Assembly (NCBI GenBank): GCA_951828515.1
Contig: OX639992.1
Span: 930,001 to 994,000 of the forward strand
Direction: 5' to 3'
Source: an uncultured Poribacteria bacterium
Lineage (GTDB): Bacteria > Poribacteria > WGA-4E > WGA-3G
Length of the DNA stretch: 64,000 nt
Positions within the stretch are counted from its first letter, which is position 1; each line of letters opens with the position of its first letter. The notes beneath the pieces were generated by a model. That model had not been told where the DNA came from. It did no database searches and saw nothing but the letters and a program-made list of their open reading frames with translations. This document shows positions 7,018 through 60,196 of the stretch, piece by piece. A program made the position numbers and the translations under genes.

Positions 7018-7143
7018 CTATTGGGCATCTACTAGGGGCGGTGGAGCATCATCAGCTGCCGGCTCCTCTATTGGGAGCGGTGGAGCATCATCATCCATAT
7101 TGCCCTGTATCATACCATCGTCTGTCATTCGGGGAATAAACCC
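7018..7143 (-). other. Out-of-frame Asp/Pro-rich tail of the P460 lipoprotein gene
   Basis: Read one frame away from the lipoprotein gene, the DNA past its stop encodes a 42-residue extension (GFIPRMTDDGMIQ, then two DDAPP blocks, ending LVDAQ) before a stop at 7018-7020. Two GGAGCATCATCA repeats lie in it. Its acidic, Met/Asp-rich composition matches the rest of the lipoprotein, so a frameshift near 7140 (mutation, sequencing error or slippage) may have cut off the original C-terminus. Confidence 0.45.
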
Positions 7144-8546
7144 AACACTATCACAATGTCTATATGATTGATGTCTCCATCACCATTCACGTCAAAATCC
7201 ATGTTGTCAGCAGTTACGGGTTGACCGAGTTGGCTGCCCACAACAGCGGCTAGGTCTGAATGACTGATGTCTCCATCATCATCCACGTCAGCATTCATGT
7301 TATCAGCAGTTACGGGTTGGCCTATCTGATCGCGCACAGCAGCGAGGTCCAGATTATTGACAACTCCATCACCGTTCACATCAGCCATGTTGGTACCGTC
7401 CATGCCTTCCATGTTATCCATGTCGTCTTCCATGTCTTCCATCGTAGTCTCGTCCATCATGTCATCCATGGAGAGCGAGACAAAGACGCTGTCGTTCGAG
7501 GCTTTGGCGTGGCATCCGTGGCATCCCATGCTCTTCTCTAAGCTACCTCCACCGACCATCATGTACTCGTCGGCTTCAGATGCGCGGGCGTACTTGACGT
7601 ACATCCACCCGTTGTGATCGGCATACATCGGATCATCGGTTTTCGTCATTACGGCTTTTTTGGCGACAAAGGTATTGGCATCATCCATAATCGTTTTGAC
7701 AATCATAGTCCCGGCAGGATAAGCTGTTCCTACTTTATTTGCCATGGCACCGATATCGTTGATATAAGCGGTGCGAGTGCCTTCGCCGTGTGCGGCACCG
7801 GTTCCGGCAGCATTCAGGGCAGCGGCGGCTTCTGCTACTGTCATCGTCGGTGCAGGAAGTTCAACGCTCGCCCACGACATGTACATTGTCGAGTCCATCA
7901 TATCCGCCATCATATCCGTCATGTCGTCAGCAGCCATCATGTCATCCATATCGTCCATTGGTAGTGAGATGAAGACGCTGTCGTTCGAGGCTTTGGCGTG
8001 ACATCCGTGGCATCCCATGCTCTTCTCTAAGCTACCTCCACCGACCATCATGTACTCGTCGACTTCAGATGCGCGGGCGTACTTGACGTACATCCACCCG
8101 TTGTGATCGGCGTACATCGGATCATCGGTTTTCGTCATTACGGCTTTTTTGGCGACAAATGTGTTAGCGTCGTCCATAATTGTCTTAACAATCACGGTCC
8201 CGGCAGGATAAGCAGTTCCTGCTTTATTTGCCATGGCACCGATATCGTTGATATAAGCGGTGCGAGTGCCTTCGCCGTGTGCGGCACCGGTTCCGGCAGC
8301 ATTCAGGGCTGCGGCGGCTTCTGCTACAGTCATCGTCGGTGCTGGAAGCGCAACATGCGCCCACGACATGTACATTGTCGAGTCCATCATATCCATTATC
8401 ATCTTCATCATATCATCAGTAGCCATCATATCAGCAGCCATCATATCGTCGGCGACGGGATCCAACATTTGCTGTGCCCTCTCACAGGATACGAAAGCGA
8501 CGGAAACAATTAGGATCGCAATCAAAGCGATCTGAACTTTTAACAT
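7125..8546 (-). CDS. Lipoprotein with two cytochrome P460-like heme domains and dockerin repeats
   Basis: The 473-residue protein starts with a lipoprotein signal (AFVSC, Cys21) and AAGGAG before the ATG. Two near-identical domains of about 140 residues follow, each with YPAGTVIVKTI, NGWMYVKYARAS and a c-type heme motif CHGCH (near residues 180 and 343), the layout of cytochrome P460. Met/Asp-rich linkers separate them. The C-terminus has three calcium-binding dockerin-type loops (DVNGDGVVNNLD, DVDDDGDISHSD, DVNGDGDINHID). It is probably an outer-surface redox lipoprotein; P460 members oxidise hydroxylamine or nitric oxide, but that activity is not shown here. The signal region is paralogous to the gene at 9085-9540. 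Confidence 0.82.
   Translation of the reverse strand: MLKVQIALIAILIVSVAFVSCERAQQMLDPVADDMMAADMMATDDMMKMIMDMMDSTMYMSWAHVALPAPTMTVAEAAAALNAAGTGAAHGEGTRTAYINDIGAMANKAGTAYPAGTVIVKTIMDDANTFVAKKAVMTKTDDPMYADHNGWMYVKYARASEVDEYMMVGGGSLEKSMGCHGCHAKASNDSVFISLPMDDMDDMMAADDMTDMMADMMDSTMYMSWASVELPAPTMTVAEAAAALNAAGTGAAHGEGTRTAYINDIGAMANKVGTAYPAGTMIVKTIMDDANTFVAKKAVMTKTDDPMYADHNGWMYVKYARASEADEYMMVGGGSLEKSMGCHGCHAKASNDSVFVSLSMDDMMDETTMEDMEDDMDNMEGMDGTNMADVNGDGVVNNLDLAAVRDQIGQPVTADNMNADVDDDGDISHSDLAAVVGSQLGQPVTADNMDFDVNGDGDINHIDIVIVLGLFPE
7480..7908 (-). repeat. 489-base direct duplication, copy next to the 3' end
   Basis: This block recurs at 7969-8397, offset by exactly 489 bases (163 codons), with only scattered substitutions. 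It encodes the second P460-like domain of the lipoprotein, so the domain pair arose by recent tandem duplication. Confidence 0.85.
7969..8397 (-). repeat. 489-base direct duplication, copy next to the 5' end
   Basis: Partner of 7480-7908; it encodes the first P460-like domain. Confidence 0.85.
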
Positions 8547-8764: not shown

Positions 8765-9037
8765 TTAGTTTTGTGGATCATTGCAGAGATCCACCATAGC
8801 GATCAACGGGGGCAGTATCTTTCAAGTGCTTATATCTCCACCCTCACTCGTCATGGGATTGAGATTTCATTAGCACAGAGAGGCCGCCCTTGGGAAAATG
8901 GATATGCCGAACGACTCATCCGAACCCTCAAGGAGGAAGAAGTTCACCTCAATGACTATGAGGATATAATCGAGGTGAGAGCACGCATTGAGCATTTTAT
9001 CACACAGGAACTGAAAAAACGGGACCAGCAACTATAG
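8765..9037 (+). pseudogene. IS3/IS481-type transposase remnant (integrase core)
   Basis: About 88 residues match the C-terminal half of an rve/DDE integrase core: IHHSDQRGQYLSSAY holds the second catalytic Asp, and GRPWENGYAERLIRTLKEEE holds the Glu. The first Asp and the N-terminus are absent, and after HFITQ the reading frame runs into a terminator hairpin and stops. There is no proper start codon or ribosome binding site. A second piece of the same family, beginning at the homologous HFITQ, sits at 17450-17575. Confidence 0.75.
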
Positions 9038-9061
9038 AATATAGTTACCAGTCCCGTTTTT
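9015..9061. terminator. Bidirectional terminator
   Basis: A perfect outer stem AAAAACGGGAC (9015-9025) / GTCCCGTTTTT (9051-9061) encloses an inner stem AACTAT/ATAGTT. T runs lie on both sides, so it can end transcription of the minus-strand Asp-Met lipoprotein gene. The left arm also forms the last codons of the transposase remnant. Confidence 0.8.
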
Positions 9062-9084
9062 AGAGATGCTGTGAAATGGAACTA

Positions 9085-9540
9085 TTAGGCATCATCATTC
9101 ATGTCGTCGTCGTCATCGTCGTCATCGTCGTCCATGCCGTCGTCCATGCCATCACCCATGCCGTCGTCCATCATGCCGTCGTCCATCATGCCGTCGTCCA
9201 TCATGCCGTCGTCCATCATGCCGTCGTCCATCATGCCGTCGTCCATCATGCCGTCGTCCATCATGCCGTCGTCCATCATGCCGTCGTCCATCATGCCGTC
9301 GTCCATCATGGTGCCGTCGTCCATCATGGTGCCGTCATCCATCATGGTGCCGTCATCCATCATGGTGCCGTCATCCATCATGGTGCCGTCATCCATCATG
9401 GTGCCGTCCATCATTTCCGAGTCGCTTTCTGCCATCATGTCATCCGTAACCGGCGTCATGATCTGCTGAGCTCTTTCACAGGATACAAAGGCGAAACAAC
9501 AAACCAAAATGGCGATTAAAATCATCTGAAATTTGAACAT
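9085..9540 (-). CDS. Asp/Met minisatellite lipoprotein
   Basis: The 151-residue protein has a lipoprotein signal (AFVSC, Cys21) closely related to that of the P460 lipoprotein (both continue CERAQQ), with AAGGAG before the ATG. The mature part is almost entirely low complexity: about six GTMMDD units, about ten GMMDD units, then a run of ten Asp and DMNDDA. It has no globular domain. A highly acidic Met-rich surface chain could bind calcium or soft metals such as copper, but that is speculation. It ends at the terminator at 9015-9061. Confidence 0.75.
   Translation of the reverse strand: MFKFQMILIAILVCCFAFVSCERAQQIMTPVTDDMMAESDSEMMDGTMMDDGTMMDDGTMMDDGTMMDDGTMMDDGTMMDDGMMDDGMMDDGMMDDGMMDDGMMDDGMMDDGMMDDGMMDDGMMDDGMGDGMDDGMDDDDDDDDDDMNDDA
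9165..9411 (-). repeat. Minisatellite of 15-base and 18-base coding units
   Basis: On the plus strand, about ten copies of GCCGTCGTCCATCAT are followed by six copies of an 18-base unit built on GTGCCGTCATCCATCAT. Both periods keep the reading frame, so slippage would change protein length without breaking it. Confidence 0.9.
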
Positions 9541-18248: not shown

Positions 18249-18938
18249 TTATTCCATGAGTTCTATCAAGCCACAGCCGATTTTGGCACCGCCTCCCGGC
18301 TGGATTGCCGGTACATTCATCTGTGTATTCGGATGCGAATGTGGTAGCGTTCCCGGCGGATGGAAATGCGGTGGTGTCATCTCCATATCCATCTGCATAT
18401 TCTTATGAGAGGCGTGCGGATTGGTTAGGAAGGTATCCCCAGTTTCGTGGACCATAATCAGTTTACCGAGGATGTCCGTATTTGGGCCTCCTCCAACGGA
18501 CCAGAAGGGGGTCTTAAATTCCAAAATACCCGTGCCATCCTCGCCGACTGAGATGTTACCGACTTCGCCTACACCGATAGGGGGCGTATCGCGCGTCGCT
18601 TGGACGACAGGTATGCCGGGAATCCCTGCTGGAATTCCCATCGGATGCCAATGCGGTCCTATATCAATGCAACTGTTACCTGTATGGAGATGCATAGCGT
18701 GTAGCCCCGGAGTGGCGTTCTGAACTTCGATTACAACGTGAACCGCTTCGTTTACTTCCGTGAAAGTGGCAGTACCGGTCAAACCGCTTCCCTCTATTTC
18801 TGATATAGTAGCGACGGCAATTTTGTCAACAGGTTCCGCGGTGATCGTCTGTGTCGGAATTTTTTCGCAACCGGTTCCAAGACACGCGACGGAAATAAGG
18901 GTTATTAACGCTGTAGAGACGTAGGACCTGGGATTCAT
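18249..18938 (-). CDS. Cu/Zn superoxide dismutase-like lipoprotein with altered metal site
   Basis: The 229-residue protein has a lipoprotein signal (CLGTGC, Cys24) and AAGGAC before the ATG. The SodC fold is recognised from GLHAMHLH (copper His pair), GPHWHP (bridging His), the copper His in IMVHETGD and GGGAKIGCGLIEL at the end. However, the two further zinc His are not found, the zinc Asp aligns with Glu (VGEVGN for the usual HVGDLGN), and the catalytic Arg aligns with Lys (GAKIGCG for GSRLACG). A His/Met-rich insert (HASHKNMQMDMEM, HFHPPGTLPHSHP) precedes the end. It may bind copper without dismutase activity, for example as a copper store. Confidence 0.75.
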   Translation of the reverse strand: MNPRSYVSTALITLISVACLGTGCEKIPTQTITAEPVDKIAVATISEIEGSGLTGTATFTEVNEAVHVVIEVQNATPGLHAMHLHTGNSCIDIGPHWHPMGIPAGIPGIPVVQATRDTPPIGVGEVGNISVGEDGTGILEFKTPFWSVGGGPNTDILGKLIMVHETGDTFLTNPHASHKNMQMDMEMTPPHFHPPGTLPHSHPNTQMNVPAIQPGGGAKIGCGLIELME

Positions 18939-49509: not shown

Positions 49510-52500
49510 CTATTTTACGATAACCATCCGCCGCGAATACGATAAACCATCCGCCTGCAGTTGGTAGAAATAGATACCACTGGCGACGCGTTCACCGACA
49601 GCGTTTCTGCCATCCCAATAGGCGGCGCGACTCCGACTCGTATAATAGCCTTCATGCTGGTGTCCGAGATTCAGTTGGCGGACGATAGTCCCCCGCATAT
49701 CATAGAGAGTGATTGTCACCTCACTCGGGTTTGCCAAGTGATACGGTATCCATGTCTCTGGATTGAACGGATTCGGATAGTTCGGAAGTAGTGCCGTCTC
49801 TTCTGGAATCAACACTGCTAAGAGACTTTGAAGGAAAGCGATACCCTCTTGGAAGGCAGTGGAACCGTCATCGGCAACGTGTGCCTGTTCGATCCATGCC
49901 TGTATCATCGCGAGATTTAATTCCCCGTTATTCATCACAGCAATAGCAGAGGGCGCGGCAGCAGCCGACTTACCCATGTGTTGTGCCACGAGAATCAAAT
50001 CTAAGATGCTGACGACACCATCACCGTTTACGTCTACTGCCGAGTTGGCGGGTGCCGTTTCTCCTAAGTGTTTTGCGATGAGTATGATGTCCAGGATACT
50101 CACCTGTCCATCCCGGTTTATATCTCCGGTAGTGAACCGCTCCTCCACAACAATAACAACCTTACGAGGCTCGGCGGGGATAGTCTCACCCGTGCTGGAA
50201 CCAAACTGAAAGTTATGCAATACCAATTGCGTCTGTCCGTCCGCTTTTGCTGAGAAGGTCACCGACAGTAACGCACCCGTACCGGTGACACCGTCTCCGC
50301 TGAGACTCGCTGAACTGAGACCTCTGATTCTCCCAGCGGTGTTATCAATTGTTCCTCTTTGAAAGAAGGTCGTTGCGCCCTCTGTTTTCAGAAATTCTCC
50401 TTCGTTTACCTCAATTGCTTTGAGTGCTGCAGCATCGAATGCGATATCAAACTGCCATCCCGCTAAATTGGGCACGTTTTCTCCGCTAATATCAAGGGTA
50501 AATGTATCGCCGACATGGATTGCGGGATTGGAAAACGTGTATCTAACACCGGAGTTTGACACTGTATATTCTGTCTCTGGTTCAAACCCAAAAGAGCCCT
50601 GACCATCGCTGAGAAGTGCAACTAACAAGACATTTTTTCCCTGCTGAAGTGTCACACGGTAATCATCCGTATACTCAGTGTCTCCCCTTCCCGAGTGACG
50701 CGTATGCTGGTGAATCAAAGTTCCATTGAGCCAGACTTGGAGCTCAGAGGGACTGCCGACATATAAGGTTGTTGCCTGTTCCCGTGGCGAAAATAGGAGC
50801 ACAGATCCATAAATGGCACCGCCTGGAACAGGAGGTTTCAACATATCCGCCATCCGCCCTGTAGACGGGAGTTTGTGAGAAGTCCACACGCTATTACCGA
50901 CAGATTGCCCTTCTACTGCCCCACGTGCAGCAATCTCTGCCTCTGTTACTTTTCCACCAGTTACCTCCGATAGTAAATCTCTCTGTAGTAAAGACCAGCG
51001 GTGGTTAGTAACGTCCACGTCCGGTAGGACAGCCCACAGCCAGGGTCCCTCTATTTTCGGGCCTCCTCCTGAGAACCCGGGATTGCCGTACCAAATGAGT
51101 TTTATACGCTCACGGACCCCATCCAAAGGTGAAAAATCCGATATCTGGTTATTACTCAGATCTAACCACTTCAGATTGGGTAATGCTGATAGTGCTGATA
51201 TGTCTGAGATGTTGTTACGTCCAAGGTGTGCCCGTTCCAAGGTGGTGAGTTTCTCTAAAAATGAAAGATTAGAGATTCCACACTGGTGCAGCCATAGTTC
51301 TTTTATAACTGTCAATTCTGATAGAGGAGATACGTCCACTTTACTACCTCTTCCAAGATCTATCTTTGCGAGTTTTGGTAACTTTGTTAGAGGTGATAAG
51401 TCAGGAACAGGTTCGCCTGACCCCCAATAGGAAAAAGTTTCCAAGCTGATTAATTTCGCGATGGGTGATAGATTACCGGGCGGTTCAACACGCAACCTTA
51501 TCCCAGTGAGGCTTTTTAAATTCACAAGAGGTGAGAGGTCTGGGATTGGGTTCTTATACATAGATAACCACCGTAAGTTTGTTAATCCTGATAGTGGTGA
51601 GATGTCAGATATTTCATTATTATATATTCCGAGTGATCCTAAACTTTTTAGGTCTGCCAGTGGTGAAATATCCGAAATCTTATTTCCTTGTATCCCCAGT
51701 CGACCGAGTTGGGTTAACCCTGCAACTGGAGAGAGGTCGGATACCAGATTGCCACGAATTTCTAAAGCCTCCAGATTTGTTGCGAACTCAAGTCCCCTCA
51801 AATCCTTAATGTCCTTCCCGTTGGCATCAAGGCGTTCTAATGTTGCCATCTCCGCCACTGTAATAGTGGACTTCGGTGCTTTGCCAAGTGCGTCTTCAAT
51901 TGCGGCGCGTAGGTTCGGGTCGGGGAAATGAACAGATTCCCCAGGGATGCGTTCCTCCCGAGGGACAACTGGCTTAACCACACTACTATCAGGTGAACTC
52001 AGTGTGGCAACGATTTCACTGAAATTCGATGTCCATGTATCCCTTTTCACGCTGCCACTCGCACTTGTTAGCACACCCAATCCCAAGTTTTTTAGACTCG
52101 CGTTCTCACGAATCTTTCGGAGGAACGTCTCGATTTCCAAATCGACTGCCGCGGCAGCATGCGTCGCACCAAGCGGTCTTTGAAACGCCTCGTAGAATCG
52201 TTGAACCGGTTCAATGCCCCCGAATACATCGCCTGACGCTTCAAGTGCTTGACGGTAACGCGCCGTATCTTTCTCTACATGCGCAGCCATCACAGATTGC
52301 TCCGTATAGAGTCGCAAGGCACGCGCTTTGTCAAACGGCGGATTTGGGTTCTGCTTGACGACTGCCCGCACCTGATCTTCAAAATCTTTCATTCCCTCGG
52401 TGTGACACCCGATACAGGAGAGTCCATTGCGGACAGTCGGATCACTCGCTGCCGGATTCGACACGATGCTTATCGGTGCCGCATCAAGTCGCCTGCCGCC

Positions 52501-53637
52501 AGCATCTACCAGATAGTATGCCTGTAAGCCATTCGGAAGGTTGAAGATAATCTCACCACCGTCGTGCGTGAATGAGAGCGGATGCGTAAAGATATTCTGT
52601 GTCCCGACACTCCCAGCAAAGTCGTAGCTTTTCCAATACGCGCCATACCGTGAGGTGTGGCGTTCCACAACGCGGTTGTTGCTCGAGACACCCGAATCGC
52701 TGAACCCCGCACGCCAGACGCGTCTGCCTGCTGCGTTCCGAGTATTTTCAACCACATTTACTTCCAATCGAGTTTCCAGTTCACGATCCGTCTCGGGGAG
52801 TCCCAAAATGTCATGGTAGAGGGGTGGTAAAGAGGCAGTCGCCAGAAACCAATCCACATGAACGAACGGCACCTCGCACGCTAACTCCTCCCGCAAATTC
52901 GTCAGTTTTTCACGCAGACTTGTCTGTGTTGGTGCCTCAAACTCAATTTTGTAGGGATATACCTGTTCAATCTGTGTCCACCTGTTGGTTCCGATTTCCC
53001 ATTCATAATCGCGGAGATCAATATAGAAAATCGTCTCTTCCCGATCAATCGGCTGTGGTCTGATGACTTCGCGTCCCCAAGAGAGACTATTCACGAGTTT
53101 AGAGAGTGCCCGTTGATAGGCGTGGAGTCCTTCCGCACTCTCACCCGCATTGTAGAGATGCGTCATCGTAAAATAGCGTGTGAAGGCGCGGTCAAATGGT
53201 GAAAGCGAGTTGATATGCTCCTCAATCGTTTCAAGCATTTCTTTAGGGGTAATAAAGGTCCCATCCGCTTCAGAAGTGCTTTCCCAACTCGGCGCACCCG
53301 CTTGAATCCAATTACTGATCGTCAGAATCGCGGCAGGAGGCAGTTGGGGTTGTCCGAGTGGCATCCGTTTTGCCGGATCGTTTACAAGCAACCGCTTATA
53401 GAGTTCAGATTCAATCGGTCTTCCCGGGACAACTACCCCGGTCTCAATGAGTGCTGTATGCTCGATAATGATTTCCTCAGTAAATGCCCCATGTTCGCCA
53501 TGACAGTTGAGGCAACTTTGTTCAAAAATCGCATACGCCTGTTGTGCAAGATTCTCTTGCGCGTTAACACTGTAAAAATTGCCCAGAATGACGGTCAACA
53601 GCAAAACGAATATAATAAAAATTTTCCAGTTTTTCAT
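49510..53637 (-). CDS. Giant surface protein: c-type heme motifs, LRRs, cohesin, dockerin, sorting domain
   Basis: The start at 53637 follows GAGGAGG. The 1375-residue protein has a signal peptide (to VNAQ), a cytochrome c-like motif CLNCH (42-46) and a second CIGCH near 410 in a cytochrome-like domain. SDS22-type LRRs (NKISDISPLADLKSL) lie at about 570-850. A cohesin-like domain is at about 1022-1165 (VGDTFTLDISGENV, LAGWQFDIAFDAA), a dockerin at about 1169-1220 (INRDGQVSILD, VNGDGVVSILD), and a FlgD/T9SS-like C-terminal domain (NYPNPFNPETWIPYHL, VASGIYFYQLQA) ends it. Probably surface anchored. Close paralog at 55865. Confidence 0.8.
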   Translation of the reverse strand: MKNWKIFIIFVLLLTVILGNFYSVNAQENLAQQAYAIFEQSCLNCHGEHGAFTEEIIIEHTALIETGVVVPGRPIESELYKRLLVNDPAKRMPLGQPQLPPAAILTISNWIQAGAPSWESTSEADGTFITPKEMLETIEEHINSLSPFDRAFTRYFTMTHLYNAGESAEGLHAYQRALSKLVNSLSWGREVIRPQPIDREETIFYIDLRDYEWEIGTNRWTQIEQVYPYKIEFEAPTQTSLREKLTNLREELACEVPFVHVDWFLATASLPPLYHDILGLPETDRELETRLEVNVVENTRNAAGRRVWRAGFSDSGVSSNNRVVERHTSRYGAYWKSYDFAGSVGTQNIFTHPLSFTHDGGEIIFNLPNGLQAYYLVDAGGRRLDAAPISIVSNPAASDPTVRNGLSCIGCHTEGMKDFEDQVRAVVKQNPNPPFDKARALRLYTEQSVMAAHVEKDTARYRQALEASGDVFGGIEPVQRFYEAFQRPLGATHAAAAVDLEIETFLRKIRENASLKNLGLGVLTSASGSVKRDTWTSNFSEIVATLSSPDSSVVKPVVPREERIPGESVHFPDPNLRAAIEDALGKAPKSTITVAEMATLERLDANGKDIKDLRGLEFATNLEALEIRGNLVSDLSPVAGLTQLGRLGIQGNKISDISPLADLKSLGSLGIYNNEISDISPLSGLTNLRWLSMYKNPIPDLSPLVNLKSLTGIRLRVEPPGNLSPIAKLISLETFSYWGSGEPVPDLSPLTKLPKLAKIDLGRGSKVDVSPLSELTVIKELWLHQCGISNLSFLEKLTTLERAHLGRNNISDISALSALPNLKWLDLSNNQISDFSPLDGVRERIKLIWYGNPGFSGGGPKIEGPWLWAVLPDVDVTNHRWSLLQRDLLSEVTGGKVTEAEIAARGAVEGQSVGNSVWTSHKLPSTGRMADMLKPPVPGGAIYGSVLLFSPREQATTLYVGSPSELQVWLNGTLIHQHTRHSGRGDTEYTDDYRVTLQQGKNVLLVALLSDGQGSFGFEPETEYTVSNSGVRYTFSNPAIHVGDTFTLDISGENVPNLAGWQFDIAFDAAALKAIEVNEGEFLKTEGATTFFQRGTIDNTAGRIRGLSSASLSGDGVTGTGALLSVTFSAKADGQTQLVLHNFQFGSSTGETIPAEPRKVVIVVEERFTTGDINRDGQVSILDIILIAKHLGETAPANSAVDVNGDGVVSILDLILVAQHMGKSAAAAPSAIAVMNNGELNLAMIQAWIEQAHVADDGSTAFQEGIAFLQSLLAVLIPEETALLPNYPNPFNPETWIPYHLANPSEVTITLYDMRGTIVRQLNLGHQHEGYYTSRSRAAYWDGRNAVGERVASGIYFYQLQADGLSYSRRMVIVK

Positions 53638-53766
53638 GTGTTTTCCTCCTCGTCCTAAGCCTTTGATTCGCAATCTATAAGGGTAGTCACAAGCGTTGCG
53701 AATTGAAATCTTCTGGTAGAGAGTGACAGGATAATATAGATTCGATAAGATCCTCACGTTATTAGT

Positions 53767-55864: not shown

Positions 55865-58800
55865 CTATTTTACGATAACCATCCGCCGCGAATACGATAG
55901 ACCGTCCGCCTGCAGTTGGTAGAAATAGATGCCACTGGCGACGCGTTCGCCGACAGCGTTTCTGCCATCCCAGTAGGCGGCGCGGCTCCGAGTCGTATAA
56001 TAGCCTTCATGCTGGTGTCCGAGATTCAGTTGGCGGACGAGGGTCCCCCGCATATCATAGAGAGTGATTGTCACCTCACTCGGATTTGCCAAGTGATAGG
56101 GTATCCATGTCTCTGGATTGAACGGATTCGGATAGTTCGGAAGCAGTGCCGTTTCTTCTGGAATCAGCAAGGCTAAAAGACTCTGAAGGTAAGCGATACC
56201 CTCTCGAAAGGCGACAGACCCATCATCTTCAACGTGCGCACGCGCTATCCACGCCTGTATCATCGCAGCATCCAACCCGTCTATGCTATCCATAGCAAGA
56301 ATCGAAGGCGACGCTGAACCCGTTGATTCACCCATGTGCTGCGCCACGAGAATTAAGTCTAAGATGCTGACGACCCCGTCTCGGTTTACGTCAACTTTAG
56401 AATTGGCAGATGCGGCGGATCCCATGTGCTGTGCCACAAGAATCAGATCCAAAATACTGACCTGTCCATCCGCATTCACATCCCAAAGTGGTTGAGATGC
56501 CACTGTGATGATAAGATCACGCATCTCAGCAGGAATCACTTCACCCGCGATCGATCCGAGTTGGAAGTTGTGCAGTGCCACTTGGCTGTTCCCCTCTGTC
56601 TTCGCAGAGAATACCACAGACAAGAGGGTGCCGGTACCGGTGCCCCCACTTTTGGAGATCAGTGCCGAACTGACATCCGTAATTTTACCCGCGGCGTTAT
56701 CAACTGTTCCTTTCTGAAAGAAGGTCGTTCCACCTCCTTTTTTCAGAAACCCACCCTCCTTTACTTCAACTGCTTCAAGTATAGTCGGGTCAAACGTAAG
56801 ATTAAACTGCCATCCCGCTAAATCCGTAACTTTTTCAGCGTTGACGTGGACGGTAAAAGCATCCCCGACGCGCACGCTTGTGGTATCTGTTGAAACTGCG
56901 AAGCCGGTACCAGGGGATATGACCATATACTCTGTATCAGGGTCAAACCCGAAATAGGCACCCCATTTATTACCAACGAATTCAACTGCGACTAATAACA
57001 CATTTGTCCCCTGCTTCAGCGTGACAGGAAAGTAATCTTGATAATCTTTAGCCCACGTAGTAAAGTTTTTGTGAATAAACTCCCCATTGAGCCAGACCAT
57101 GTGCCTATGATTGCTTCCAGCAAACATTCTCGTTTTCTGTTCCCGCGGTGAATTCAAGAGGAGGGAACCATAAATGACGTTCCTACCTACATCAGGATAG
57201 TTCGATATACCAATATCACTGAGTGTTGCGTTGCTAGATCTGACCGTAAGGATGGGGGAGATTTTGTGTGATGTCCACACGTTTTCTCCGACGCGATTTC
57301 CCTCCGTTGCTCCATGGGTAGCAATCTCCAATTCGGTCACAGCCCCGTCACTTGCTCGCGAAAGCAAATCCTTTTCATCCCGAAAAAGGGCTTCCGGTAC
57401 CAACACCCACAACCAGGGTCCCTCTATTTTGGGACCTCCCTGAAGGAAACCCGGGTTGCTGTCCCAAATGATTTGTGTATTTTCGCGTAACCCATCCAAA
57501 GGCGAAATGTCTGATATGTTGTTTCGCTGAAGATATAACACTTTCAAATTTCGCAAAGCTGCAAGCGGTGATACGTTCGATATATTGTTGGTAGATAGGT
57601 CTAGCTCTTCAAGACTTTTCAAAGAGGCAAGCGACGAGATATCTGATATATGACCGTTGCCGAACAGTGCGAGGTACTCCAAATTAATCAGTCCTGCCAA
57701 GGGTGAAACGTTTGATATTTTGCTGCCCCCAATTACCAGTTTTTGCAGACCGGTTAATCCTTTTAAAGGTGAGAGGTCAGAGGTCTTGGCATTATATATT
57801 TCCAATCTCTTCAAACTTGTGAGTCCCGCCAGAGGCGAGAAATCTAATATTGGGGATCCTTGTAACTCTAACCACCTGAGTTTTGTTAATCCTACCAGTG
57901 GCGAAACATCTGATATAGAGGTGTCCCAAGCACCTATACCCTCCAAGTTAATTAAACCTGCAAGGGGCGACAGATCGACTATCAACTCGCCCGAAAACCG
58001 CACCTCTTTCAGCATTATCAGTTCCGAGAGCGGAGATAAATCGGAAAGTGAACTCTTCCTCAGATTTATTTCCTTGAGTTTAACTAAGCCCGCAAGCGGT
58101 GATATGTCGGATATTGGGTTGTTCTGAAGATACAACTCTTCCAGATCTGTCGCAGTTTCCAATCCTGTCAAATCACGAATTCCTCGGCCAACTCCCCTAA
58201 GGTCCAGCAATGCCTTCATGTCTTCTGCTGTTATCACATCGCCAGGTGCTTTATCAAGTGCAACTTCAATTACCTCGCGAAGGTTTGCGTCGGGAATATA
58301 AACAGATGCCCCAGGGATACGCTCTGTCCGCGGCACAATAGGCTTAACTACAACACTATCAGATGAACTCAATGTTGCAACGATTTCACTGAAATTCGAG
58401 GTCCAGGTATCCCGTTTCACACTGCCCCCCGCACCCGTCAGCACTAACAAGCCTAAAGAGTTTAGGCTTGTATTCCGACGAATCTTTTCAAGGAACGTCT
58501 CTGTTTCTAATCCGACCACGGCGGCAGCGTGCGCCGCATCAAGTGGTCTTTGAAATGCCTCGTGGAATCGCTGGATGGATTCAATACCGCCGAATACATC
58601 GCCTGTCGCTTCAAGTGCTTGACGGTAATGATTGGTATCTCCATCTATAAAGGCATCCATCTTCGCTTTCTCCACGTACAACCTCAATGCCCGCGCTTTG
58701 TCATAGGGCGGATTTGGGTTCTGTTCAACGATACCCCGCACCTCATCTTGAAAATCTTTCATCCCCTCGACGTGGCACCCAATACAGGAGAGTCCGTTGC

Positions 58801-60007
58801 GGACGGTCGGATCGCTCGCTGCGGGGTTGCGAACGATATTTATCGGTGCCGCATCGAGACGATTGCCGCCCGCATCCACCAGAAGGTATGCCTGTAACCC
58901 GTTCGGAAGATTGAAGATAATCTCGCCACCGTCGTGGGTGAACGAGAGCGGATGGGTACGGATATTCTGCGTCCCGACGTTCCCGGCAAAGTCGTAACTC
59001 TTCCAATACGCCCAATACCGAGATTTATGACGTTCCACAACGCGGTTGTGATTCGATACGCCCGATTCGCTGAAACCCGCACGCCAGACGCGCTTCCCCG
59101 CTGCGTTTTGAAGATTTTCAACGACATTGACTTCCAGTCGAGTCTCTAACTCGCGATCGGTTTGCGGGAGGTCTAAGATATCATGGTAGAGTGGCGGCAA
59201 GGAAGCTGTTGCGATGAACCAATCCACATGAACGAACGGCACCTCACACTCCATGGCTTCGCGTAGATTCGTCAGTTTATCACGCAGACTTGTCTGTGTC
59301 GGGGCATCGAACTCAATGCTGTAGGGATACATCTGTTCAATCTGTGTCCACCGGTTGGTTCCGATTTCCCATTCATAATCTCGGAGATCAATATAGAAAA
59401 TCGTCTCTTCGGGATCAATAGGCTGTGGTCTGATGACCTCACGTCCCCAAGAGAGACTATTCACGAGTTTCGAGAGTGCCCGTTGATAGGCGTGGCGTGC
59501 TTCCGCACTCTCACCGGCATTATAGAGATGGGTGAGTGTAAAATAGCGTGCGAAGGCACGGTCAAATGGTGACAGCGAGTTGACGTGCTTCTCAATGGTG
59601 TTGAGCATTTCCGTGGGAGTAATGAAGTCACCACCCACTTCAGAGGTGCTTTCCCAATCCGGAGCACCCGCTTGAATCCAATTTCCGAGGGTTACAATCG
59701 CTGCACCGGACAGTCGAGGTTGCCCGAGTGGCATTCGTTTCGTCTCATCCGTTGCAATGAGTCTCCTATAGAGTTCAGATTCAATCGGTCTTCCCGGGAC
59801 AACTGCCCCTGTTTCAATGAGTGTCGCGTGCTCAATAATGATTTCTTCAGTGAACGCCCCATGTTCTCCATGGCAATTGAGGCAACTTTGCTCAAAAATC
59901 GCATACGCCTGTTGGGCGAGATTCTGCTGGGCATCAACACTGTGAGAGTTGCCCAGAATCATGGTCAACAGCGAAACGAATGTGATAAGAATTTTCCAGT
60001 TTTTCAT
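55865..60007 (-). CDS. Giant surface protein, second paralog of the heme/LRR/cohesin/dockerin type
   Basis: The start at 60007 follows AAAGGG. The 1380-residue protein repeats the architecture of the gene at 49510: signal peptide, CLNCH and CIGCH, LRRs (NPISDISPLAGLVKL), cohesin-like domain (VGDAFTVHVNAEKV, LAGWQFNLTFDPT), two dockerin loops (VNADGQVSILD, VNRDGVVSILD) and the same C-terminal sorting domain. The heme region and last 100 residues are nearly identical in both, while the LRR and middle domain (after about 880) are divergent, suggesting gene conversion of the ends or selection for diversity in the middle. Confidence 0.8.
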   Translation of the reverse strand: MKNWKILITFVSLLTMILGNSHSVDAQQNLAQQAYAIFEQSCLNCHGEHGAFTEEIIIEHATLIETGAVVPGRPIESELYRRLIATDETKRMPLGQPRLSGAAIVTLGNWIQAGAPDWESTSEVGGDFITPTEMLNTIEKHVNSLSPFDRAFARYFTLTHLYNAGESAEARHAYQRALSKLVNSLSWGREVIRPQPIDPEETIFYIDLRDYEWEIGTNRWTQIEQMYPYSIEFDAPTQTSLRDKLTNLREAMECEVPFVHVDWFIATASLPPLYHDILDLPQTDRELETRLEVNVVENLQNAAGKRVWRAGFSESGVSNHNRVVERHKSRYWAYWKSYDFAGNVGTQNIRTHPLSFTHDGGEIIFNLPNGLQAYLLVDAGGNRLDAAPINIVRNPAASDPTVRNGLSCIGCHVEGMKDFQDEVRGIVEQNPNPPYDKARALRLYVEKAKMDAFIDGDTNHYRQALEATGDVFGGIESIQRFHEAFQRPLDAAHAAAVVGLETETFLEKIRRNTSLNSLGLLVLTGAGGSVKRDTWTSNFSEIVATLSSSDSVVVKPIVPRTERIPGASVYIPDANLREVIEVALDKAPGDVITAEDMKALLDLRGVGRGIRDLTGLETATDLEELYLQNNPISDISPLAGLVKLKEINLRKSSLSDLSPLSELIMLKEVRFSGELIVDLSPLAGLINLEGIGAWDTSISDVSPLVGLTKLRWLELQGSPILDFSPLAGLTSLKRLEIYNAKTSDLSPLKGLTGLQKLVIGGSKISNVSPLAGLINLEYLALFGNGHISDISSLASLKSLEELDLSTNNISNVSPLAALRNLKVLYLQRNNISDISPLDGLRENTQIIWDSNPGFLQGGPKIEGPWLWVLVPEALFRDEKDLLSRASDGAVTELEIATHGATEGNRVGENVWTSHKISPILTVRSSNATLSDIGISNYPDVGRNVIYGSLLLNSPREQKTRMFAGSNHRHMVWLNGEFIHKNFTTWAKDYQDYFPVTLKQGTNVLLVAVEFVGNKWGAYFGFDPDTEYMVISPGTGFAVSTDTTSVRVGDAFTVHVNAEKVTDLAGWQFNLTFDPTILEAVEVKEGGFLKKGGGTTFFQKGTVDNAAGKITDVSSALISKSGGTGTGTLLSVVFSAKTEGNSQVALHNFQLGSIAGEVIPAEMRDLIITVASQPLWDVNADGQVSILDLILVAQHMGSAASANSKVDVNRDGVVSILDLILVAQHMGESTGSASPSILAMDSIDGLDAAMIQAWIARAHVEDDGSVAFREGIAYLQSLLALLIPEETALLPNYPNPFNPETWIPYHLANPSEVTITLYDMRGTLVRQLNLGHQHEGYYTTRSRAAYWDGRNAVGERVASGIYFYQLQADGLSYSRRMVIVK

Positions 60008-60196
60008 GTAATTTTTCCCTTTCACTAAGGCTTTGATTCGCAATCTTTAAAGATATCTCCAAGCGTTGCGATACGCTTGCGCATGACAGACGAGCATACT
60101 CATAACAGATACGAGTAAACGAATCCAGAAAACTTTAGGAGATGTTTGTATTTTCATCCATGGACTCCTTATGAATCTGTTTTATTTCAGAGTATG

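Follow-up and report, generated by a model that had tools for sequence, protein, structure and literature searches.

The P460 lipoprotein locus

The DNA analyzed here (the window, 64,000 bases) spans bases 930001-994000 of a 5.85 Mb single-contig Candidatus Poribacteria genome. One of its genes encodes a lipoprotein with two P460-type heme domains, set between linkers and followed by a dockerin-type tail (Table 1). Its predicted lipobox, assigned by eye, is AFVSC (residues 17-21), and S20 and C21 are conserved in at least 90% of 38 relatives. An initial sequence-only reading had described Met/Asp linkers and three dockerin-type loops, and both descriptions held. The linkers contain 27-38% Met and 20-31% Asp. 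The tail scored 45.6 bits against the Dockerin_1 profile (PF00404), for which the cut-off is 22.9, and its three loops are of the DxNxDG type with a repeat spacing of 96/93 bases.

Table 1. Features of the P460 lipoprotein gene and of its upstream partner, in window coordinates
Feature	Coordinates	Strand	Basis
Whole gene, P460 lipoprotein with two P460 domains and dockerin-type tail	7125..8546	-	ORF, 473 aa
Signal peptide and lipobox, residues 1-21, MLKVQIALIAILIVSVAFVSC	8484..8546	-	sequence; leader common to gene 9085-9540
Linker 1, Met/Asp-rich	8388..8483	-	composition
P460 domain 1: His90, Arg95, Lys121, Ala135, CHGCH 179-183	7962..8387	-	profile, alignment, fold
Linker 2, Met/Asp-rich	7899..7961	-	composition
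P460 domain 2, 489-base tandem copy of domain 1: His253, Arg258, Lys284, Ala298, CHGCH 342-346	7473..7898	-	profile, repeat, alignment
Linker 3, Met/Asp/Glu-rich	7389..7472	-	composition
Dockerin-type C-terminal region	7128..7388	-	PF00404 E 8.4e-12; genome search 37.8 and 31.8 bits
F-hand-type Ca loop 1, DVNGDGVVNNLD	7347..7382	-	sequence and repeat
F-hand-type Ca loop 2, DVDDDGDISHSD	7254..7289	-	sequence and repeat
F-hand-type Ca loop 3, DVNGDGDINHID	7158..7193	-	sequence and repeat
Upstream partner, (MMDDG)n lipoprotein, 151 aa, Met 27%, Asp 32%	9085..9540	-	same leader

The leaders of the P460 lipoprotein and of the upstream partner are 56% identical over 55 residues. The partner gene consists purely of (MMDDG)/(MMDDGT) repeats in units of 15 and 18 bases, a possible hypervariable locus. 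Between the two genes lies an IS-type integrase fragment on the plus strand (8771-9037; rve_3, E 5.2e-9), adjoining a 34-base imperfect inverted repeat at 9003-9073. Elsewhere in the window, a Cu/Zn superoxide dismutase-like lipoprotein is encoded on the minus strand (18249-18938; Sod_Cu, E 5.1e-15).

Both domains belong to the P460/c'-beta superfamily

A search with the Cytochrome_P460 profile (PF16694) had been set beforehand as the refuting test for the proposal of two P460-like domains with CHGCH motifs. The whole 473-aa protein matched in two stretches (E 4.2e-18), with both domains above the Pfam cut-off of 27 bits (38.4 and 36.9 bits) and each CHGCH motif inside a match. Together with the predicted fold and the cross-link Lys described below, these matches bear out the P460 identity. 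Such strength on both domains, with profile and fold in agreement, is not chance, and a fortuitous CxxCH was rejected. Weak matches to other Pfam and NCBIfam families, including zf-Vps39_C, NmrA, RiPP_SkfA, and CrcB, were rejected as well, all being below their own cut-offs.

An AF2 model of domain 1 was built from 34 aligned domains and reached a pLDDT of 89.1 and a pTM of 0.84, the other four models scoring 75.3-82.8. When this model was used in Foldseek, the best 19 PDB rows were all P460 or c'-beta proteins (E 2.6e-6 to 3.9e-3). VIA Z was 14.9 for TtCP-beta, 13.6 for McCP-beta, and 13.0 for McP460, followed by 10.3-10.8 for the Nitrosomonas proteins and 4.8 for the first unrelated structure. 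The full-length model of the lipoprotein was poor (pLDDT 54). By profile and by model, the predicted fold of both domains is that of the cytochrome P460/c'-beta superfamily.

Within this superfamily, the protein resembles the cytochromes P460 (McP460, 6HIU; NeP460, 2JE3; NsP460, 6AMG) in its fold, CxxCH motif, cross-link Lys, and Arg at the Arg50 position. Unlike McP460 and NeP460 it has no distal carboxylate, a feature also missing from NsP460. It further differs from the solved P460s in the His aligned at the cap, in having a tandem within a single chain, and in being a lipoprotein that bears Met/Asp tethers and ends in a dockerin. The cytochromes c'-beta (TtCP-beta, 7EAD; McCP-beta, 6HIH) gave the best fold matches and share the small residue at the carboxylate site and the W, G, Y, M, and W positions. 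In contrast to them, the poribacterial domain retains the Lys and has His/Arg in place of their Phe cap.

Residues of the heme pocket

Pocket residues were assigned with HMMER by aligning a profile of poribacterial domains with the solved chains, and residue numbers were counted from printed chain positions. This counting reproduced the published numbers for McP460 (Arg50, Lys78, Asp102) and TtCP-beta (Phe29, Phe61, Gly82), as given in Table 2 of PMC11928373 and in PMC6427953. The NeP460 and NsP460 positions are the equivalences stated in PMC11928373 rather than a residue-level alignment of our own. Within domain 1, Arg95 fell on McP460 Arg50, Lys121 on McP460 Lys78 (TtCP-beta Phe61), Ala135 on McP460 Asp102 (TtCP-beta Gly82), and His90 on the cap residue, TtCP-beta Phe29.

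The same positions were read across 73 poribacterial domains chosen by a pattern, CxxCH then [DN]xV[FW], which left out differently spelled relatives (e.g. L070 and L067); L127-L139 and L164-L166 are likewise outside this set. All 73 carried the His and the cross-link Lys, and the Arg50 position was occupied by Arg in 47 and by Lys in 26. Alignment had been proposed as the check for the cross-link Lys, and it placed this residue in every domain. By the criterion for c'-beta, where Phe, Met, or another residue stands in place of the Lys, these domains fall outside that group. The distal carboxylate (Glu96/Asp102) was found in none of the 73: its position held Ala in 66 and Val in 7, the window protein having Ala135 and Ala298 there. 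Outside the 73-domain set, the His, Lys, and Ala were also recognized by eye in L070, L127-L130, and L164-L166. A class-level relative from outside the order (L004/L131) keeps the Lys but aligns a Tyr with the cap and has Thr in place of the acid.

Of these assignments, that of the His to the cap is the least secure, because the His-to-Arg loop varies in length from 3 to 22 residues. For single-type relatives, a His-to-Arg/Lys spacing of 3 residues yields the c'-beta register with no gap needed, and the window subfamily has 4 or more, up to 22. The invariant His would thus lie at or beside the cap position and could be one residue off in the window subfamily. None of nine alignable plasmid proteobacterial P460s had a His there, and PMC11928373 gives the cap as Phe or Arg in all structurally characterized members. 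As aligned, the union of Lys, an acid site occupied by Ala or Val, and an invariant cap His is a combination absent from the six solved members in Table 2 of PMC11928373.

Tandem duplication

The two domain copies are offset by exactly 489 bases. They differ at 30 of 435 nucleotides and 7 of 145 amino acids, corresponding to a dN of 0.024, a dS of 0.27 (0.274), and a dN/dS of about 0.09. The duplication had been called nearly identical and hence recent. It is lineage-specific, but the combination of dS and dN indicates that it is not extremely recent and that the protein has been kept the same. Purifying selection would hold the protein as silent sites diverge, or else gene conversion would be at work.

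A separate near-identical tandem occurs in the relative L035 (offset 480, dN 0.020, dS 0.361). Since the window pair and the L035 pair each formed their own sisters in the domain tree (supports 0.80 and 0.91), tandem doubling occurred more than once. The copies in other tandem relatives (L034, L045-L047, L079) are about 55% identical.

Distribution and genomic context

PF16694 was present in 50 of 60 related genomes, and the P460 domain profile matched 74 of the 84 phylum genomes searched. Most genomes of the same genus carry both the Met/Asp kind and a short P460 with a single domain. One genome (G024; L127-L130) has 14 P460-profile matches, many of them in short lipoprotein genes of their own whose tails are rich in Pro and Glu; here the family has expanded locally. 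A plasmid search with window and single-type P460 domains gave no match, and the collection of papers searched contained none joining Poribacteria with P460 or with dockerin.

The P460 locus is conserved across the genus. Around the Met/Asp gene, an IPT/TIG lipoprotein gene was found in 26 of 36 loci, a downstream GH13 amylase gene in 24, an upstream SurA-like gene in 24, and an upstream TPR gene in 24, counts that include some loci ending at contig ends. A short Met/Asp-repeat lipoprotein lay directly upstream on the same strand in 14 of the 36, where five loci have less than 350 bases upstream and are unable to show a partner, and where that of L068 is partly masked.

Exchangeable C-terminal modules

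We scanned 38 Met/Asp proteins; L056, truncated where its contig stops, L075, which contains a run of N, and L067 are outside this set. The P460 domain was found in all 38, Dockerin_1 in three, Spond_N in three, and Peripla_BP_6 in two. One of the three dockerin matches, that of L053, was below the Pfam cut-off at 21.0 bits. With P460 present throughout and the tails differing, the heme domain is the constant part and the tail the exchangeable one. In L071 and L080 the P460 domain is fused behind the Peripla_BP_6 (periplasmic-binding-protein) domain. L165, a class-level relative with a single-type P460, has one dockerin-like loop ahead of the heme domain, so the dockerin/P460 pairing may have arisen more than once. 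The tail of the window protein shares its F-hand Ca loops with type I dockerin (PF00404) and differs from it in having three loops instead of two and in sitting on a heme lipoprotein.

Proposed function and alternatives

We put at about even chances a 'half-way house' P460, that is, a tethered heme protein for small ligands (NO, possibly peroxide) and not a canonical hydroxylamine oxidase. Such a protein would be a periplasm- or surface-facing lipoprotein carrying two c-type hemes on Met/Asp-rich tethers, with one heme, probably Lys-cross-linked, bound by each P460 domain. Three cytochrome c assembly matches were found in the source genome. The domains would bind or process small ligands, NO first and peroxide second, and would pass electrons or serve as a sink. 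Their likeliest job would be the binding or slow redox processing of such ligands at the cell envelope. The tandem would double the sites and may mimic within one chain the homodimer of solved relatives. The Met/Asp tethers may serve as metal ligands or absorb oxidants, and the tail, taking no part in the chemistry, would be an exchangeable module for calcium binding or adhesive display.

A NirK profile gave one match over the genome, below its cut-off. Sponge-dwelling ammonia oxidizers could supply both NO and NH2OH, and this supply is one reason to regard NO as the first candidate ligand. The others are analogy with c'-beta relatives, which bind NO (PMC11928373), and a report of sponge-symbiont Poribacteria without denitrification genes (PMC8546597).

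Hydroxylamine oxidation, which the sequence-only reading had put forward for testing, fared less well. A working hydroxylamine oxidase that detoxifies NH2OH from ammonia-oxidizing sponge neighbors agrees with the Lys in 73 of 73 domains and with Arg at the Arg50 position in 47. Its invariant His could serve as base, or another residue could supply the one that is missing. Against this, active P460s need a proton-accepting carboxylate, McP460 Asp102 or NeP460 Glu96, according to PMC11928373, and all 73 domains have Ala or Val at its position. Both window domains are in the same state as NsP460, which is listed in Table 2 of that source as Lys-cross-linked, with Ala at the acid site and without NH2OH oxidation; in NeP460, Glu-to-Asp alone inactivates the enzyme (PMC11928373). 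Lacking the acid, the domains would presumably not turn over hydroxylamine in the canonical way. The AMO and octaheme families also had no match in the genome, in searches run without a positive control. Because the acid is missing, canonical oxidation is unlikely, and it was rejected as the main reading.

Heme peroxidases have a distal His plus Arg. An invariant His, with Arg in 47 of 73 domains, would suit a peroxide-reactive heme protein, for which the (MMDDG)n partner and the tethers, both rich in Met, would serve as sinks for oxidation or bind Cu(I); this Met-rich partner adjoins the gene in 14 of 36 loci. Peroxidase-like activity is described for the Arg-capped NeCP-beta (PMC11928373). 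However, the His-Arg spacing is variable, and in NeP460 peroxidase activity is described only in Lys70Ala, the activity being suppressed by the cross-link to Lys or by Lys as such (PMC11928373). For this reason peroxide is only the second candidate ligand, and we judge a mainly peroxide-reactive protein improbable.

The sequence-only reading had also suggested that the protein could dock or bind calcium at the surface, and the dockerin motif behind this suggestion is genuine. It raises another alternative, in which the dockerin connects the P460 protein to cohesin proteins that bear heme, forming an extracellular multi-heme assembly. The source genome has 84 dockerin matches and 14 cohesin matches in 12 ORFs, and cohesins were found in 21 of 21 genomes searched. 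Two similarly placed CxxCH motifs occur in nine of the 12 cohesin ORFs, and these nine account for 9 of the 15 PSCyt1 matches in the genome. Two of the nine lie in the window on the minus strand (49510-53757 and 55865-60043) and encode proteins of about 1400 aa with a PSCyt1-type heme motif and a second motif, CIGCH, along with LRRs, a cohesin, a dockerin, and a FlgD-like C-terminus. However, the nine di-heme ORFs look like one paralogous family of single origin and were counted as one event. Dockerin also occurs in only 3 of 38 P460 relatives, one of them below the Pfam cut-off, and the recognition residues of the P460 loops (NL, HS, HI) are unlike the IL/VL type of other window dockerins. 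A calcium-dependent cohesin-dockerin heme complex outside the cell, with a di-heme PSCyt1-type scaffold onto which the tandem P460 lipoprotein is docked by its dockerin, therefore seems very unlikely. If true, it would amount to a cell-surface redox or NO-handling network organized like a cellulosome.

A mainly structural or adhesive surface lipoprotein, whose heme domain is cargo of little catalytic weight while tails and repeats drift, would account for the varying tails and the repeat-driven linkers, yet is hardly probable given a domain core invariant across 73 domains while the tails drift, a dN/dS of about 0.09 between the copies, and a conserved genome position.

Significance

The poribacterial protein is a well-kept, lineage-specific variant of a known superfamily, and its fusion and tandem forms are unusual. 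For the P460 field, the question is what divides hydroxylamine oxidation from mere gas binding. The poribacterial P460s are a natural test set for it: they have kept the Lys, their acid position is fixed as Ala or Val, and an invariant His aligns with the cap. This residue combination is of specialist interest. In this uncultured phylum of sponge symbionts they also present P460 domains as modular lipoprotein parts, joined to domains of the dockerin, spondin-like, and solute-binding types.
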